Below, piece after piece: positions 13,619-22,529 of a stretch of DNA of 49,916 nucleotides. Origin of the DNA: Christensenellaceae bacterium (GTDB taxonomy: Bacteria; Bacillota; Clostridia; Christensenellales; DTU072); NCBI GenBank assembly GCA_031259965.1, contig JAIRKT010000010.1:1-49916 (forward strand), in the 5' to 3' direction. Position numbers and translations under genes: made by a program. Numbering within the stretch: the first letter of the stretch is position 1; each line of letters begins with the position of its first letter. Below the pieces are notes generated by a model, which saw nothing but the letters and a program-made list of their open reading frames with translations, ran no database searches and was not told where the DNA came from.

Positions 13619-15250
13619 TTATTCAGTTAGTAATTTTACATATTTTTTCAAATAACCTGTTAAATTTGTGGTTGTTTTTAATTTAGTGTGTTTTTGTCTG
13701 TATTCTATAACTGAAGAACAAAAATCGGTATTTTGAATAATTTTTTTATTCATATCAATAGTGATAATATCATTATCTTCTATATAAGCAATAGGTCCAC
13801 CTAGTGCGGCTTCTGGTGTTATGTGGCCTATAGCCGCTCCTCTTGTTGCTCCTGAAAATCTACCATCGGTTATTAAAGCCACAGATGTGTCAAGCCCCAT
13901 CCCAACTAGTGCTGATGTGGGCTGTAGCATTTCACGCATGCCAGGCCCCCCAGCAGGACCTTCATAGCGTATAACTATGACATCTCCTTTTTTAATTTTA
14001 CCTGATATTATTGCGGAATAAGCACTTTCCTCACTATCAAAAACACGCGCAGGACCGCTAAATACTTGCATACCAGGATCAACCGCGCTCCTTTTTACTA
14101 TGCAGCCATTGGGTGCTATATTCCCAAACAACACACACAAGCCACCATCCCTAGCATAAGGAGAGTCGAATTTTTTGATTATATCTTTTTTCTTGATGAA
14201 TTTTGATTTAATATTTTCGCCTATTGTCCTCCCATTAGCGGTCAGAGCATCTAATAATAATAGTCGTTTTATTTCGTGCATAAGTGAATAAATTCCACCA
14301 GCCTGGTGAAAATCTTGGAGATGGTATAGACCTGCAGGAGCAAGTTTGCATAATGTAGGGGTTTGAGCACTTAAAATATTAACTAATTCCAAATTGAATT
14401 CTCTTTCACATTCTCTGGCGATTGCACTTAAATGCAATACAGTGTTAGTAGAGCAACCAAGTGCCATATCAACAATTAATGCATTACGGATTGATTTTTC
14501 GTTAATAATATCTCTAGCTGTTATGTTGTTCTTTAAAAGATCAATGATAGTTTCTCCAGTCAACTTAGCCAGTCTCCTGCGTTCAGAATAGACAGCTGGT
14601 ATAGTACCATTTCCTTCTAACGCTATGCCTATTGCTTCACATAAACAATTCATTGAATTAGCGGTAAACATTCCTGAGCAGCATCCAGAAGTGGGACAGG
14701 CGACGGATTCAATTTCGCAAAGTTGTTCTTTAGATATTTTGTTGTTTGCGAAAGCGCCTGCTGCCTCAAAAACTGAATTGAGATCTGCATATGTTCCTGT
14801 ATTGTCAATAGACAACATGGGACCACCTGATACAAAAATAGAAGGCAAGTCTAGTCTTACAGCTGCCATTAACATTCCAGGTACAACTTTGTCGCAATTT
14901 GGGATAAACACTAAAGCGTCAAAACGATGTGCTCTCACCATGCATTCAATAGAATCAGCGATAAGGTCGCGTGATGCTAGGGAATATTTCATTCCATCAT
15001 GTCCCATTGCAATTCCATCACAAATTGCAATTGTGTGGAATTCAAAAGGAATTCCACCAGCCGCAAGAACGCCTTGCTTAACAGAGTATGCAATTTTATC
15101 TAAATCAATATGTCCAGGCACAATATCATTATGAGAATTAACAATGCCAATAAAAGGTTTTTGGATATCCCGATCTGAAAGCCCAGCGGCTTTTAGAAGC
15201 GATCTGTGGGGGGCGGTTTTTGCGCCCTTTTTGAATATATCACTATTCAT
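13619..15250 (-). CDS. ilvD: Dihydroxy-acid dehydratase IlvD
   Basis: IlvD is the cytoplasmic Fe-S dehydratase that converts dihydroxy acids to 2-keto-isovalerate and 2-keto-3-methylvalerate, the third common step of valine and isoleucine synthesis. Cluster-ligand regions are present: '[13 protein letters not shown]' near residue 120 and '[19 protein letters not shown]' near 190. '[20 protein letters not shown]' is the conserved C-terminal block. At 543 residues it is near the usual 550-570. The gene begins immediately after ilvC with no gap and is the last gene of the ilv operon. No strong terminator is seen after it. Confidence 0.97.
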
Positions 15251-16249
<999 letters not shown>

Positions 16250-16272: not shown

Positions 16273-16647
16273 TTAATTTATAGCAATACATTCAATCTCA
16301 ACGAGAGCATCTTTGGGCAGTGCTGCTACCTCTATAGTGCTTCGCGCTGGGTATGGCTCGCAAAAGAAACTAGCATAAACCTCATTCATAGCAGAAAAAT
16401 CTGAAAGGTTTTTGAGAAACACTGTTGTCTTTACAACATTAGTTAAATTTAGGTTCTCTGAGGCTAGTATCGCAGTAACATTATTTAGTACTTGCTTTGT
16501 CTGAGAAACAATACCCTCTTTTAGTAAACACGTGCCGGGGTCTATTGGTAATTGACCAGATAGAAACAAAAATCTGCCAGCTTTTACACCTTGCGAATAT
16601 GGTCCGATAGCACTAGGTGCTAGATTAGAATGGATAGATTTTTTCAT
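16273..16647 (-). CDS. ridA: RidA-family enamine/imine deaminase
   Basis: A 124-residue YjgF/UK114 protein. 'GPYSQGVKAGRFLFLSGQLP' and 'PARSTIEVAALPKDALVEIE' hold the conserved Arg and Glu of the trimer-interface active site. RidA hydrolyses reactive 2-aminoacrylate and related enamines released by PLP enzymes such as threonine deaminase, preventing damage to PLP-dependent enzymes. Its place inside an ilv operon fits this, because the isoleucine branch begins with threonine deaminase; IlvA itself is not in the window. It lies 25 bases after ilvN and 23 before ilvC. TAAGGAGAAT precedes the ATG. Confidence 0.93.
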   Translation of the reverse strand: MKKSIHSNLAPSAIGPYSQGVKAGRFLFLSGQLPIDPGTCLLKEGIVSQTKQVLNNVTAILASENLNLTNVVKTTVFLKNLSDFSAMNEVYASFFCEPYPARSTIEVAALPKDALVEIECIAIN

Positions 16648-16672: not shown

Positions 16673-17194
16673 TTAAGTTGATTCTTTCTCTGACTTTGAA
16701 ATCAGAGATATTTGCCCGCGATCCAAAACTGTGATCCCTGTTCTTGATAGTTCAATAATTCCAAATTTTTCGACGTATTTTATAAAGGCATTAAGTTTAT
16801 CTTCTTGCCCTGTTATTTCTACAATCATAGACTCAGGCGCCATGTCTACAACCCTGCCTCTAAATATATTGATTGCTTCTAATAATTGTCCCCCATTATC
16901 AGGTGAATGCATGATCTTAACAAGCATTAATTCGCGTGTTACAGAGTTGAGTGGATCTGCTAATTCTGCTGCAATTACGTCTATTAACTTGCGTAATTGT
17001 TGAAGAATTTGCTCAAGCAATGATTCATTGCAATCGACCACTATAGTCATTCTAGAGATGCTTTCATCATCCGTACAACCGACACTTAAGTTATCAATGT
17101 TGTAGCCTCTGTTTGCAAATAGTCCAGCAACCCTAGTCAAAACACCATAGCGGTTATGTACTAACAGAAATATAGGATATTTTTTTGAGTTCAT
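16673..17194 (-). CDS. ilvN: Acetolactate synthase regulatory (small) subunit
   Basis: The 173-residue protein has an N-terminal ACT domain ('FLLVHNRYGVLTRVAGLFANRGYNI', residues about 9-33) followed by the C-terminal domain of IlvN/IlvH-type subunits ('TRELMLVKI', 'VVDMAPESMIVEITGQEDKL'). It binds the catalytic subunit IlvB, activates it and confers feedback inhibition by valine. The long two-domain form (over 160 residues) is the IlvH-like type. It starts eight bases after ilvB ends. Confidence 0.95.
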   Translation of the reverse strand: MNSKKYPIFLLVHNRYGVLTRVAGLFANRGYNIDNLSVGCTDDESISRMTIVVDCNESLLEQILQQLRKLIDVIAAELADPLNSVTRELMLVKIMHSPDNGGQLLEAINIFRGRVVDMAPESMIVEITGQEDKLNAFIKYVEKFGIIELSRTGITVLDRGQISLISKSEKEST

Positions 17195-17202
17195 AAAACT
17201 AT

Positions 17203-18861
17203 CTACCTTATAATTATATCATTAATTGTACCATTTGGTGGTATCATTGGAAATACATTTTCGTCCTGATCTAATATACAATGAATTAAAACAGGCTTTT
17301 TAGAGGTCTGACGCGCTTTCTGCAGCGCTTTTTGTAGTTCATCTATAGTGTGCACACTAAAACCAAATGCGCCAAATGCACAAGCCAGGTCGACATAATT
17401 TGTTTTGCGATTCAGAGTGGTCTGCGAATAGCGTCCGCCATAAAACATGGTTTGCCACTGTCTTACCATGCCAAGTGCATTGTTATCTAAAACTATAACT
17501 ACCACTTGTAGGTTATACTGGGCACATGTTGCTAATTCGTTCAAATTCATGTGAAAACTACCATCACTTGTAAACAACACAACCCTTTGATTATTTAACG
17601 CAATGCAAGCGCCTATGGCAGCACCCATTCCATATCCCATAGTTCCAAGACCACCACTCGTTAGAAATGCGCGTGGTTTGGTAAATCCATAGTATTGTGC
17701 CGTCCACATTTGATGTTGTCCGACATCGGTTGCAACAGGCGTTTCTCCCAGCACATTTTGTACAGATTCTATTATATCTTTTGGTGTTAGTTTGTTAGCA
17801 GATTTGCATAACAAATTTGCTTTAGAATTTTTAAGTTCATATATATGGTTTAACCATGTGTCCTTTGCTTTAATCTGCATATTATCTATGAGCGTTTCTA
17901 GGATCTCCCTCACATCACCTATAATATACTCGTCGACTTTAATATTTTTATTAATTTCCGCTCTGTCAATATCAATTTGCAAAACCTTGCAATGTTGCAG
18001 AAATTTTTCTTTATTTCCAGTAGCTCTGTCTGAAAATCTAACACCTATAGCTATTAATAAATCACATTCAGATAAGGCTTTAGTCGCGGCATAGCGTCCA
18101 TGCATTCCAGCCATACCTAGGGCTAGTTTGTGATCATATGGAATTGCTGTAACACCCATTAGACTAGTAGCGACAGGTGCGTTTAATTTTTCAGCGAAAT
18201 CAACTAGCGCATTGCTCCCGCCTGAGATTACTACACCACCACCTGCATATATATACGGCCTTTTAGCATCTCTTAATAAAGATATAGCAGAAGCTACATT
18301 AATTTTGTATGATTTTAATGGAGGTTTAAATTCACAACAATCATCATATTCCACAACCTCTTGTTGAATATCTTTTGGTATATCAATTAACACAGGGCCA
18401 GGCCTGTCAGATGATGCTATGTAAAATGCTTCATGAACGATGCGTTTAATATCTTTAGCGGAGCGCAGTGAATAGTTATGTTTAGTAATTGGCATTGTAA
18501 TACCTACAATATTAACTTCTTGGAAAGAATCCTTTCCAATTAAACTAGTTGAAACGTTACCAGTGATAGCAATTAAGGGCACACTATCTAGAAAGGCATT
18601 AGCAATTCCTGTTACTAAGTTTGTAGAACCAGGGCCAGATGTTGCAATAATAACACCTGGCTCTCCTGACATCCTAGCATATCCGTCTGCAGCATGCGTG
18701 GCCCCTTGCTCGTGCGCGGTTATATAGTGAGTAATTTTGTCAGTGTTTTTGTATAATTCGTCATAAATATCTAAAACGCTACCGCCAGGATAACCGAATA
18801 TTTTACGAGCTCCCAAAACTATTAGTTCGCGTATTAGTATTTGTGCCCCCGTTAATTTCAT
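17203..18861 (-). CDS. ilvB: Acetolactate synthase catalytic subunit IlvB
   Basis: A 552-residue thiamine-diphosphate enzyme that condenses two pyruvates, or pyruvate and 2-ketobutyrate, at the entry to the branched-chain amino-acid pathway. It has the catalytic Glu in 'ITAHEQGATHAADGYAR' (near residue 48), the FAD-type central domain, and the TPP motif from 'TSDGSFHMNLNELATC' to 'VVIVLDNNALGMVRQWQ'. 'FGYPGGSVLDIYDEL' near the N terminus is typical of biosynthetic AHAS. GGAGG lies four bases before the ATG. It is the first structural gene of the operon and is preceded by the attenuator. Confidence 0.97.
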   Translation of the reverse strand: MKLTGAQILIRELIVLGARKIFGYPGGSVLDIYDELYKNTDKITHYITAHEQGATHAADGYARMSGEPGVIIATSGPGSTNLVTGIANAFLDSVPLIAITGNVSTSLIGKDSFQEVNIVGITMPITKHNYSLRSAKDIKRIVHEAFYIASSDRPGPVLIDIPKDIQQEVVEYDDCCEFKPPLKSYKINVASAISLLRDAKRPYIYAGGGVVISGGSNALVDFAEKLNAPVATSLMGVTAIPYDHKLALGMAGMHGRYAATKALSECDLLIAIGVRFSDRATGNKEKFLQHCKVLQIDIDRAEINKNIKVDEYIIGDVREILETLIDNMQIKAKDTWLNHIYELKNSKANLLCKSANKLTPKDIIESVQNVLGETPVATDVGQHQMWTAQYYGFTKPRAFLTSGGLGTMGYGMGAAIGACIALNNQRVVLFTSDGSFHMNLNELATCAQYNLQVVVIVLDNNALGMVRQWQTMFYGGRYSQTTLNRKTNYVDLACAFGAFGFSVHTIDELQKALQKARQTSKKPVLIHCILDQDENVFPMIPPNGTINDIIIR

Positions 18862-18896
18862 GATCCCTCCAAAAACTACAAAAATTAATGTAAATT

Positions 18897-18930
18897 AAAA
18901 AAAGACTCCTCTGCTTGTGCCTAGGAGCCT
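18897..18930 (-). terminator. Attenuator terminator before ilvB
   Basis: On the minus strand a 7-bp stem GGCTCCT/AGGAGTC (one G-U) with a 12-base loop is followed directly by seven T. It lies 36 bases before the ilvB ATG and would stop transcription unless an antiterminator forms. Confidence 0.85.
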
Positions 18931-18957
18931 TTAGTAAATCAAACTTTAACTAATTTT

Positions 18958-19056
18958 TCAGGCCTCGTTAGGCATTAGAAATGTTTTCTTGCCAAGGAGG
19001 ACAAGAATTATAACTAAAATGACTATAGAGACTATGCTGAAAAACAATGCAAACAT
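18958..19056 (-). CDS. ilv leader peptide (32 aa, Ile/Val/Leu-rich)
   Basis: A 32-codon ORF too short for the ORF track. It starts MFALFFS and continues with the run 'IVSIVILVIILVLL' (residues 8-21), in which 13 of 14 residues are Ile, Val or Leu, then 'GKKTFLMPNEA' and TGA. It stands where a ribosome-sensing leader peptide is expected, between a consensus promoter and a terminator before ilvB. The -10 ends only nine bases before the ATG, so the transcript probably starts within about three bases of the start codon and the leader would be read as a leaderless mRNA; no Shine-Dalgarno is present. A small membrane microprotein is the alternative, but the adjoining switch structure favours attenuation. 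Confidence 0.82.
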   Translation of the reverse strand: MFALFFSIVSIVILVIILVLLGKKTFLMPNEA

Positions 19057-19065
19057 GTTAAAATT

Positions 19066-19094
19066 ATTATACCTTAATTTTTAAAAAAGATCAA
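19066..19094 (-). promoter_or_regulatory. Promoter of the ilv operon
   Basis: On the minus strand TTGATC (-35) and TATAAT (-10) are separated by exactly 17 bases. The -10 lies nine bases from the leader-peptide ATG. Confidence 0.82.
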
Positions 19095-19180
19095 CTAAAA
19101 CAAGCGGCATCAGGTTAGTAAAAATAAAGTAATTAAGATTTTTGCCTTAACATATCAAAAAAACAAAGGATTTAAGGTTG

Positions 19181-20059
19181 TTAATAAACTGGATATGTTG
19201 GATTAATGTTCTTTGTTATGTCTAGAAAAAATTGCAAGTTCCAGTGTTTTAATTCATTTGAATTAGTGACAAATGGCAGCACATCTTGTTTCGCAAGATC
19301 AATATCAACTGATGTAAAATGTTCGTTTAGTAAATTTATTAGACTAGTGCGAACTAAATCAAAATTGCTATCAATGAAACCAGAATTAACGAGTTTTGCT
19401 TTCAAATAAGGCATATTAACAGCTGAGTTTTGTGAAATATAAAAAATGTAATCATAGAGATCTCTCCCCTTTATGCGATTTTTCCAGGCGCGACAGAGAA
19501 CAGCGTGTAATTTGCCAGCAAATAGCGTTGGCATATCATGGAGTTTAATCTGATAAAATGAAGGAAAAAACTTATTTTTGTTTTCAAATGTTGCAAAACC
19601 AGGAGTATTTAAATCCACATCAATTTTTATTTTTATAACTTCCTCAGGATGCACAGCTTTTAAACTGCGTGTGTTAGGATAGAAGAGTGAAAGATTCTCT
19701 TTTAAATTGCCCGTTAAAAATGCGCTTGCTATAGCTGGGTTAAATGGATTAGTTTTAGGTTCAGCCTTAAAGTTTAAACCTATCGCGCAGAGCTCGTTTT
19801 CTACGAAGGGTAGATAGTGACTTAAGTTAAAATTTAAATCAGCTAAAACAAGTGAGAAGTCCAAATCCTCCGAAAATCGTCTGAGAGCATAGAAAATACG
19901 CAGGGCTGTGCCTCCATGAAAGGCAGCCTTTTTGAAAAAGCGAGCCCTGGACAAGCCACATAATATAACTTCTTGTGTGATTTCTTTTAAGGCATTTTTT
20001 GCATCTTTCAAAGATTCAATTTTATATTTATGAAGCATTTGATCTAAAAGAGTTTGCAA
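19181..20059 (-). CDS. abiEii: AbiEii-type toxin, nucleotidyltransferase
   Basis: The 292-residue protein has the AbiEii/DUF1814 nucleotidyltransferase core 'FHGGTALRIFYALRRFSEDLDFSL' (about residues 48-71), with the G-G-T-A-L-R and S-x-D-L-D-F elements that bind the metal and nucleotide. 'LFAGKLHAVLCRAWKNRIKGRDLYDYIFY' is the second conserved block. AbiEii toxins arrest growth, and related MenT enzymes add nucleotides to tRNA. Its start overlaps the AbiEi antitoxin gene by 16 bases, the usual antitoxin-first order. The system often serves in abortive phage defence or element maintenance. Confidence 0.9.
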   Translation of the reverse strand: MQTLLDQMLHKYKIESLKDAKNALKEITQEVILCGLSRARFFKKAAFHGGTALRIFYALRRFSEDLDFSLVLADLNFNLSHYLPFVENELCAIGLNFKAEPKTNPFNPAIASAFLTGNLKENLSLFYPNTRSLKAVHPEEVIKIKIDVDLNTPGFATFENKNKFFPSFYQIKLHDMPTLFAGKLHAVLCRAWKNRIKGRDLYDYIFYISQNSAVNMPYLKAKLVNSGFIDSNFDLVRTSLINLLNEHFTSVDIDLAKQDVLPFVTNSNELKHWNLQFFLDITKNINPTYPVY

Positions 20060-20655
20060 ATAGCACCTCCGTCTTCGACAAATTTCGTGAGAAGTTTAAG
20101 TGATGTTGAATTGTAAAGTGGTGCAAATTTGCGGATATCCGCAAATTTGAGTTTTTTGAATTCATCTAAATCGATTCTTAAATCATCAAACAACATTTCT
20201 CGTAAATCTCTTAACGATCTAACAGGCGAGAGCGAATATAATTTATCACATAGTGCCTTTTCAGGCGATGCTATTTGGTATGAATAATCGTGACTTTCGG
20301 CTAATCGAATTTCAACACCAATATTGTATACAGAGGATGGGACATCTCTGTATGTGAAAGTTCCAAAAGCATTGGTATATAGTTTTGTTTTGTTTTTTAA
20401 AAAAGTAGCAGATGTATAGGTATTATAGACAGTCTCAGGAATCATCGAATATGTATATAGAGCATAGTCAAAAGAAAGATAGGAAGGGCCATAAATCAGT
20501 CCCGCTAAATATTCACCAGCTATTTGTGAGTCACTCTCATAAAGACCTCTCCTTATTTGGATTAGTCGTCTAGACTGAACATCACGTCTGATTTTGCCTT
20601 TCACATCTGTGAAATTATGATATTTTAGAATTAAATCGTCAAATGTAAAAACCAT
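20044..20655 (-). CDS. abiEi: AbiEi-type antitoxin / transcriptional regulator
   Basis: The 203-residue protein has an N-terminal winged-helix-like region ('RDVQSRRLIQIRRGLYES', about residues 27-44) and a C-terminal AbiEi domain ('SFDYALYTYSMIPETVYNTYTSAT', 'YQIASPEKALCDKLY'). AbiEi antitoxins neutralise AbiEii without stable protein binding (type IV) and repress their own promoter through the N-terminal domain. It precedes and overlaps abiEii. A consensus promoter lies 18 bases upstream, leaving a short 5' UTR with a weak ribosome binding site (AGGT). Confidence 0.9.
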   Translation of the reverse strand: MVFTFDDLILKYHNFTDVKGKIRRDVQSRRLIQIRRGLYESDSQIAGEYLAGLIYGPSYLSFDYALYTYSMIPETVYNTYTSATFLKNKTKLYTNAFGTFTYRDVPSSVYNIGVEIRLAESHDYSYQIASPEKALCDKLYSLSPVRSLRDLREMLFDDLRIDLDEFKKLKFADIRKFAPLYNSTSLKLLTKFVEDGGAICKLF

Positions 20656-21161: not shown

Positions 21162-21170
21162 TGGTATAAT
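21162..21170 (+). promoter_or_regulatory. Extended -10 promoter of the AlbA_2 gene
   Basis: TGGTATAAT is a TGn-extended consensus -10 only six bases before the ATG at 21177. The -35 is weak. If used, the message would be leaderless. Confidence 0.5.
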
Positions 21171-21176
21171 AAGGTT

Positions 21177-22529
21177 ATGGAAAATCAAAACTTGGAATGG
21201 AAAGAAGTTTGGAAAGACGACTGCCTTAAAACGCTTTGTGCATTTGCCAATACTGACGGCGGAACAATGGAAATTGGTCGTAATGACAAAGGCGTTGTTG
21301 TTGGAGTTAAGGCCGCAAAGAAATTATTGGAAGATTTGCCAAATAAAATAGCCCAAACACTCGGCGTTATAGCCAAAATTAAATTGCAAAAAGACATTAT
21401 TTCAATCCATGTGCCTGCTTATACCAACGCAATCTCTTATCACGGGAAGTTTTATAAACGGGTTGGTTCTACCACACAGGAAATTATCGCATTGACATTA
21501 ACAGAATTTATTTTGAAGAAGCAAGGCAGAACTTGGGACACTTTAACCGAAGATACAGCCACCATAGAGAACCTTGATATTGTTGCGATAGAAGTGTTTA
21601 AAAAAAAGGCACAAAAGGCAAGACGTTTGCCGCCCGATGACATTTTGTTGTCTACCCCGAAATTGCTGGATAAATTGTTACTCTTTGACAAAAACAAAAA
21701 ACTTGTAAATGCTGGACTTTTATTGTTTGGCGAAAACCCCGAAAGATACGCCATTGGTGCATTCGTAAAAGTTGGGGAATTTGCTGAACACGAAAATTTA
21801 TTATTTCAAGACGAATTTCACGGGGCTTTAATTAGATTGCCCGATGAAATATCAAAAACGATTTACCATAAATATTTTAAGGTTCTCGTTTCGTATGAAG
21901 GCATTATGAGAGTTGAAACAGAAGCTGTTCCACAAGAAGCATTAAGGGAAGCAATATTAAATGCCATTATTCACAACGATTATAAAACGGGCATTCCAAT
22001 TCAAATTAAAATTTATGAAGACAAAATCATAATCTACAATTGCGGAAAACTGCCTGATGATTGGACAATAGACACACTTCTATCTGCTCATAAATCACAT
22101 CCAAGAAATCCGCTTATTGCAAATACATTTTTTCGTGCGGGTTTCATTGAAAGTTGGGGTCGTGGTATAGAACGAATGAACGAAATTTGCGATAACGAAA
22201 ATTCCCCACGCCCAAGATTTGAGGTTCACGGCAATGACTTTGCGATTATATTTAACTTTTGTGATAAATATATCCAATTATTGTCACAGGGCGAGCCAAT
22301 AAACGCTACTGTAAACACTACTGTAAACACTACTGTAAAACTAACAAAAACTCAAAAACAAATACTTAATTCAATATCTCAAAACAATGCAATTACAACA
22401 GCAGAATTATCGAGCCAATTATCTTTGCATATTGTTTCAATAAAAACTGCAATAAAAAAGCTACAAGAGTTAGGGCAAGTCAAACGCATTGGAAGTGATA
22501 AGACAGGGCATTGGGAAATTGTAAAATAA
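21177..22529 (+). CDS. AlbA_2 (Schlafen-like) / RecG-like ATPase-domain regulatory protein
   Basis: I start at ATG 21177 (MENQNLEWKE), because this is the usual N terminus of the AlbA_2 family; the 45 residues added by the ORF track are not family-like. The protein has 450 residues. The AlbA_2 domain ('EWKEVWKDDCLKTLCAFANTDGGTMEIG', residues about 7-34) is followed by the C-terminal HATPase_c_4-type region with 'AVPQEALREAILNAIIHNDY' and 'PRNPLIANTFFRAGFIESWGRGIERM'. A Thr/Val/Asn repeat linker precedes a winged-helix end ('TAELSSQLSLHIVSIKTAIKKLQELG'). Such proteins are putative transcriptional regulators or defence factors; the exact role is unknown. Base and codon use look richer in GC than neighbours, and direct repeats flank it, suggesting transfer. 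Confidence 0.88.
   Translation: MENQNLEWKEVWKDDCLKTLCAFANTDGGTMEIGRNDKGVVVGVKAAKKLLEDLPNKIAQTLGVIAKIKLQKDIISIHVPAYTNAISYHGKFYKRVGSTTQEIIALTLTEFILKKQGRTWDTLTEDTATIENLDIVAIEVFKKKAQKARRLPPDDILLSTPKLLDKLLLFDKNKKLVNAGLLLFGENPERYAIGAFVKVGEFAEHENLLFQDEFHGALIRLPDEISKTIYHKYFKVLVSYEGIMRVETEAVPQEALREAILNAIIHNDYKTGIPIQIKIYEDKIIIYNCGKLPDDWTIDTLLSAHKSHPRNPLIANTFFRAGFIESWGRGIERMNEICDNENSPRPRFEVHGNDFAIIFNFCDKYIQLLSQGEPINATVNTTVNTTVKLTKTQKQILNSISQNNAITTAELSSQLSLHIVSIKTAIKKLQELGQVKRIGSDKTGHWEIVK
22308..22341 (+). repeat. 12-bp in-frame tandem repeat in the AlbA_2 gene
   Basis: ACTGTAAACACT occurs about 2.8 times in a row and encodes the linker 'ATVNTTVNTTVK' between the ATPase-like part and the winged helix. 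In-frame units allow copy-number change without breaking the gene. Confidence 0.85.

Follow-up and report, generated by a model that had tools for sequence, protein, structure and literature searches.

Leader-peptide attenuators are already known in the Bacillota, and leaderless ones in the Actinobacteria. Mutations in the ilvD attenuator of Staphylococcus aureus relieve repression, and ilv leader-peptide attenuation has also been predicted in Lactococcus and Streptococcus; an earlier note on the DNA analysed here, which held such control to be unusual for Firmicutes, was therefore too strong (PMC5794164). The S. aureus leader resembles the present one in belonging to the Bacillota and in combining a short ORF rich in branched-chain amino acids with a terminator and an antiterminator upstream of an ilv operon (PMC5794164). 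It differs in its length of 26 amino acids, its three Ile codons followed by two Leu codons and scattered further Leu codons, its putative ribosome-binding site and the additional involvement of CodY (PMC5794164). No sequence homology is seen between the two leaders. Among the Actinobacteria, leaderless leader peptides including ilvL have been described in Streptomyces lividans (PMC8079986), and altered codons in the ilvB leader of S. coelicolor were without effect (PMC1262725).

The locus considered here lies on the minus strand of the window, a stretch of 49,916 nucleotides from a Christensenellaceae bacterium (assembly GCA_031259965.1, contig JAIRKT010000010.1, positions 1 to 49,916). It is very probable that a ribosome-mediated transcription attenuator controls the ilvB-ilvN-ridA-ilvC-ilvD operon at this locus, with stalling, read-through and a response to amino acids modelled on classical attenuators.

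The leader locus and the ilv operon

The leader ORF is situated between a TTGATC-17-TATAAT promoter and the ilvB operon, with a terminator and a competing antiterminator downstream (Table 1). The elements reported in the earlier note are present: the promoter followed by nine bases and an ATG (19094-19056), the 32-codon ORF with 13 of 14 consecutive residues being Ile, Val or Leu (I8-L21), and the terminator with its 7-bp stem GGCTCCT/AGGAGTC and T7 tract (18929-18897). The TGCCTA/TAGGCA antiterminator that was said to use the end of the leader ORF is also there (18974-18969/18923-18918), but the real pairing is larger than the 6 bp quoted and amounts to 12 pairs. The intrinsic terminator, a stem followed by T7, sits between the leader ORF and the structural genes and has a z-score of -3.6 to -3.7. 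It was omitted by the mechanical promoter/terminator scan because its loop is longer than the limit of that scan. A run of end-product codons, a terminator, a mutually exclusive antiterminator and a position before the cognate operon that is conserved in relatives are thus all found, as expected of an attenuator.

The structural genes follow 3′ of the leader in the order ilvB-ilvN-ridA-ilvC-ilvD, the ridA-type deaminase gene being embedded between ilvN and ilvC. Directly upstream of the leader is an AbiEii-type nucleotidyltransferase gene (PF08843, 19181-20059). The upstream partner ORF of this gene (region 19181-20655) has no Pfam match and may encode an AbiEi-type antitoxin.

Table 1. Positions of the leader elements and operon genes in the window
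Feature	Position	Strand	Basis and remarks
-35 hexamer TTGATC	19089..19094	-	sequence; homologous to TTGACC of sister species G001
-10 hexamer TATAAT	19066..19071	-	17-nt spacer from -35; 9 nt upstream of leader ATG
ilv leader peptide ORF MFALFFSIVSIVILVIILVLLGKKTFLMPNEA	18958..19056	-	32 codons, ATG at 19056, stop 18960-18958, without Shine–Dalgarno; homologues in relatives
Sensor block, codons 8-21 (I8-L21)	18994..19035	-	13/14 Ile/Val/Leu, Val mostly GTC
Antiterminator 5′ side (TGCCTA ... GAG.CCT)	18960..18974	-	within last leader-ORF codons
Antiterminator 3′ side (AGGCTC.TAGGCA)	18918..18930	-	overlaps terminator 5′ arm and loop start
Terminator hairpin GGCTCCT/AGGAGTC	18904..18929 (arms 18929-18923/18910-18904)	-	sequence, fold z-score
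T7 tract of terminator	18897..18903	-	sequence
ilvB, acetolactate synthase large subunit	17203..18861	-	TIGR00118, 7.5e-211; Shine–Dalgarno GGAGGG at 18870-18865
ilvN, acetolactate synthase small subunit	16673..17194	-	TIGR00119, 6.5e-54
ridA-type imine/enamine deaminase	16273..16647	-	TIGR00004, 1.1e-48
ilvC, ketol-acid reductoisomerase	15251..16249	-	TIGR00465, 2.4e-135
ilvD, dihydroxy-acid dehydratase	13619..15250	-	TIGR00110, 2.8e-214

Conservation, composition and other readings of the leader

The comparison across related genomes for conserved Ile/Val/Leu codons, proposed as a check in the earlier note, reveals leaders rich in these residues before ilvB in 22 genomes of the order to which the window's genome belongs, drawn from six families, and at five further loci. 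Twelve of these genomes, the window's included, belong to the same family and carry the leader together with a terminator (the others are G001, G002, G003, G010, G011, G014, G017, G019, G021, G022 and G029); the remaining ten represent the other five families, f3, f14, f29, f4 and f18. The five further loci come from a named collection and include Oribacterium sinus and two Lentisphaerota. No leader is seen before ilvB in G025, G013 and G060, where another biosynthetic gene precedes ilvB. The ilvB genes of the Lentisphaerota (L001 and L009, up to 54% identical) are likewise accompanied by Ile/Val/Leu-rich leaders and terminators, which suggests that ilvB was transferred together with its attenuator.

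A T-box, or another RNA that senses tRNA or a ligand, could also govern ilvB and leave the ORF incidental. T-boxes precede ilvB in other members of the order: one lies directly before the gene in G058, of the same family, and the remaining sampled upstream regions of the order hold either T-box motifs, assigned by motif only, or neither element. The window's genome itself has three T-boxes. Against this, no T-box covariance-model match (RF00230) was obtained upstream of the window's ilvB, and all Rfam families stay below their cut-offs in the window's leader and at 17 related loci. At relaxed thresholds, the best sub-threshold matches are at chance level, with PyrR at 24.7 bits against a cut-off of 54. 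Control of ilvB by such an RNA can be regarded as extremely improbable. As the genome does contain T-boxes, these coexist in it with leader-peptide attenuation. One of its T-boxes (L120, G000:C115:9707-9959) lies upstream of an asparagine synthetase-like gene.

The sensor block is exceptional within its genome (G000). With Ile, Val and Leu making up 24.9% of residues genome-wide, at least 13 of 14 is expected with a probability of 1.5e-7 per 14-residue stretch. Genome-wide counts refer to 1.55 Mb sampled from the 2.24-Mb draft. In this sample, 2 of 10,067 short ATG ORFs reach 13/14, and a scan for a short ORF, a terminator and a large ORF in succession returned the window's locus as the sole Ile/Val/Leu case. 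No further convincing leader-peptide attenuator was found in the same 1.55 Mb.

The leader peptide consists of one hydrophobic segment followed by KK, and it could be a small transmembrane peptide with a function of its own, for instance a type I toxin-like or a regulatory one, that lies before ilvB by chance. The composition of the leaders argues otherwise. The best 14-residue blocks of 26 leaders are 82% Ile/Val/Leu and contain no Phe (0/364 residues), whereas Phe amounts to 9.9% of the residues in membrane-like segments of the window's genome; of 499 such segments, only 7 contain at least 12 Ile/Val/Leu. Val codons in the blocks are biased to GTC, which accounts for 47% of them compared with 10% in the window's genome, and for three of the four in the window's own block. 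In addition, it is the position of the leader before ilvB that is conserved and not the peptide sequence, and the end of the ORF retains its pairing with the terminator. A membrane peptide is thus highly improbable, and this reading was rejected on residue composition.

Antiterminator pairing and the proposed mechanism

In the minimum free energy (MFE) fold of the window's transcript cut before the terminator 3′ arm, positions 18974-18960, at the end of the leader ORF, form 12 pairs with 18930-18918 and occupy the entire terminator 5′ arm and the start of the loop. The antiterminator pairing is present in the corresponding fold of all 25 leaders analysed. The earlier note had also proposed looking for covarying stems, and the alternative pairing proves to be preserved across related genomes in a swap test: among these 25 leaders, the mean duplex energy with the leader's own partner is -17.9 kcal/mol, against about -12.2 kcal/mol with exchanged partners, and 0 of 20,000 permutations were as good. 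Complementarity is kept as the sequence changes, the paired segments being ATGCCTA/TAGGCAT, GGTTTGCC/GGCAAACC, GGTTTTGCC/GGCAAAACC, TGTACTGCC/GGCAGTACA, TGCGATTG/CAATCGCA and TTGTATACA/TGTATACAA. The exception is the leader of G021 (L091), in which the ORF end (HTANKVISR) pairs with the terminator by 4 bp only; this is possibly a decayed or frameshifted attenuator.

The conserved Ile/Val/Leu-rich leaders and the swap test strongly support the attenuator proposed in the earlier note, and because of them leader-peptide attenuation at the window's ilvB appears near certain on comparison across genomes.

For the full-length leader of the window's genome at equilibrium, the terminator is favoured even with the ORF end free. 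Antitermination would therefore have to be kinetic, with the antiterminator made first, and we infer that it wins by forming first, as in other co-transcriptional switches. The antiterminator is favoured outright in several relatives (e.g., G014, G029 and G010). A small local hairpin (GCCT/AGGC) is also possible within the ORF end.

Codon 21 is the last of the sensor block, the antiterminator arm starts in codon 28 and the stop is codon 33. A ribosome covers about 12-15 nt on each side of its decoding site. On the assumption of this footprint, the antiterminator arm would stay accessible while a ribosome is stalled in the block and would be covered by a ribosome that has reached the stop codon.

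The mechanism may be envisaged as follows. RNA polymerase would start just 3′ of the TATAAT hexamer, and a ribosome would load on the leader ATG, nearly at the 5′ end of the mRNA. A lack of charged Ile-, Val- or Leu-tRNA would make the ribosome stall within codons 8-21. The ORF end would then remain free to pair with the antiterminator 3′ side before the terminator 3′ arm is made, and the polymerase would read through to ilvB. When charged tRNA is plentiful, the ribosome would reach the stop codon and cover the ORF end, which would allow the terminator to form and to stop transcription in the T7 tract, near 18897.

The 5′ end of the leader mRNA and known systems

No Shine–Dalgarno sequence is present in TATAATAATTTTAAC, which precedes the window's leader ATG. 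The sister species G001 has a homologous promoter, TTGACC-17-TATAAT, separated from the ATG by 26 nt, and an SD-like AGGAAA motif. Most other relatives have a 5′ region of about 20-50 nt in which a Shine–Dalgarno sequence is usually recognisable.

Leaderless-type starts do occur in the window's genome. Among 793 ATG-first genes (first starts, in the 1.55-Mb sample), a promoter-like -10 ends 6-7 nt before the ATG in 15, and 14 of these 15 are without a Shine–Dalgarno sequence; the distance is 3-5 nt in three genes and 8 nt in one. The class lacking a Shine–Dalgarno sequence, with the -10 at 6-7 nt, suggests leaderless mRNAs in a Clostridia genome. In a published survey, the leaderless genes of Firmicutes belong mainly to Lactobacillales and Mycoplasma (PMC3160421). 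A Schlafen/AlbA_2-domain gene in the window also looks leaderless, with TATAAT-AAGGTT-ATG at 21177 (21165-21182) and the -10 located 6 nt before the ATG; the start listed for it (21042) probably lies too far upstream. The TATAAT-ATG arrangement recurs in two similar genes of this genome (L166 and L234).

The 9-nt spacing of the window's leader exceeds the 6-7 nt at which these genes peak sharply, and so the leader would be near-leaderless at most, with a 5′UTR of 2-3 nt. The same discrepancy could mean that the leader is translated from a longer mRNA starting upstream, lacking a Shine–Dalgarno sequence yet not near-leaderless. This is rather unlikely: only one promoter-like site was detected on the minus strand in 18840-19400 by the promoter scan, and that single promoter corresponds to the G001 promoter. 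It is moderately likely that the window's leader is translated from a predicted 5′UTR of only about 2-3 nt, left after deletion of the Shine–Dalgarno-bearing 5′UTR still found in the sister species.

Since G001 keeps the homologous promoter, the 26 nt and the SD-like motif, the near-leaderless state would be derived in the window's genome and not lineage-wide. The 5′UTR was probably shortened in this genome, as judged mainly from the pair G000/G001, and the evidence for the near-leaderless state comes from a single draft genome. The leaderless reading of the earlier note thus holds in part. The absence of a Shine–Dalgarno sequence, the -10 ending 9 nt before the ATG and the leaderless-type gene class in the genome speak for it, but relatives have ordinary 5′UTRs, usually with a Shine–Dalgarno sequence, so that it does not describe the lineage's general mode. 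On balance, the evidence leans slightly towards a sensor peptide read from a near-leaderless mRNA through a recent deletion of the Shine–Dalgarno-bearing 5′UTR. For control by stalling, initiation would now have to be leaderless (possibly 70S); a minority of genes in this Bacillota genome would use such starts. As the leader seems to have lost its ribosome-binding site by natural deletion, this genome can serve to test whether attenuation in the Bacillota can be driven by leaderless initiation.

In several uncultured Clostridia families, ilvB would be placed under leader-peptide attenuation and not the phylum's usual T-box. Both solutions occur inside one family (a T-box in G058, leaders in the others), which may make the swap of two sensors of tRNA charge traceable on the tree. 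Rfam holds no model for the Clostridia ilvB leader. No description of these leaders was found in the literature searched; nor did it yield a match for an attenuator with a near-leaderless leader in the Bacillota, which is not proof of novelty.

The T-box of Bacillota ilv operons (RF00230) has the same target genes, the same uncharged-tRNA signal and the same terminator read-through, but it binds tRNA directly, without translation, and is absent at the window's ilvB. Streptomyces lividans ilvL (PMC8079986) and Corynebacterium glutamicum ilvBNC (PMC11857589) also have a leader peptide before ilvB followed by terminator-like hairpins, on a leaderless mRNA, a state only predicted, as near-leaderless, in the window. 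Both differ in being actinobacterial, and the S. lividans peptide has 13 amino acids, among them two Leu, one Val and one Ile, and a start mapped by RNA-seq (PMC8079986). Mycobacterium tuberculosis ilvB1NC, which belongs to another phylum, has a short LVVI block and experimental support (PMC13236596). It shares with the window's locus an upstream ORF rich in branched-chain amino acids, whose end is hidden when the ribosome sits on the stop codon, and a two-state terminator/antiterminator (PMC13236596). Judged by sequence comparison, the window's leader would work like, and by all features tested is, a leader-peptide attenuator.
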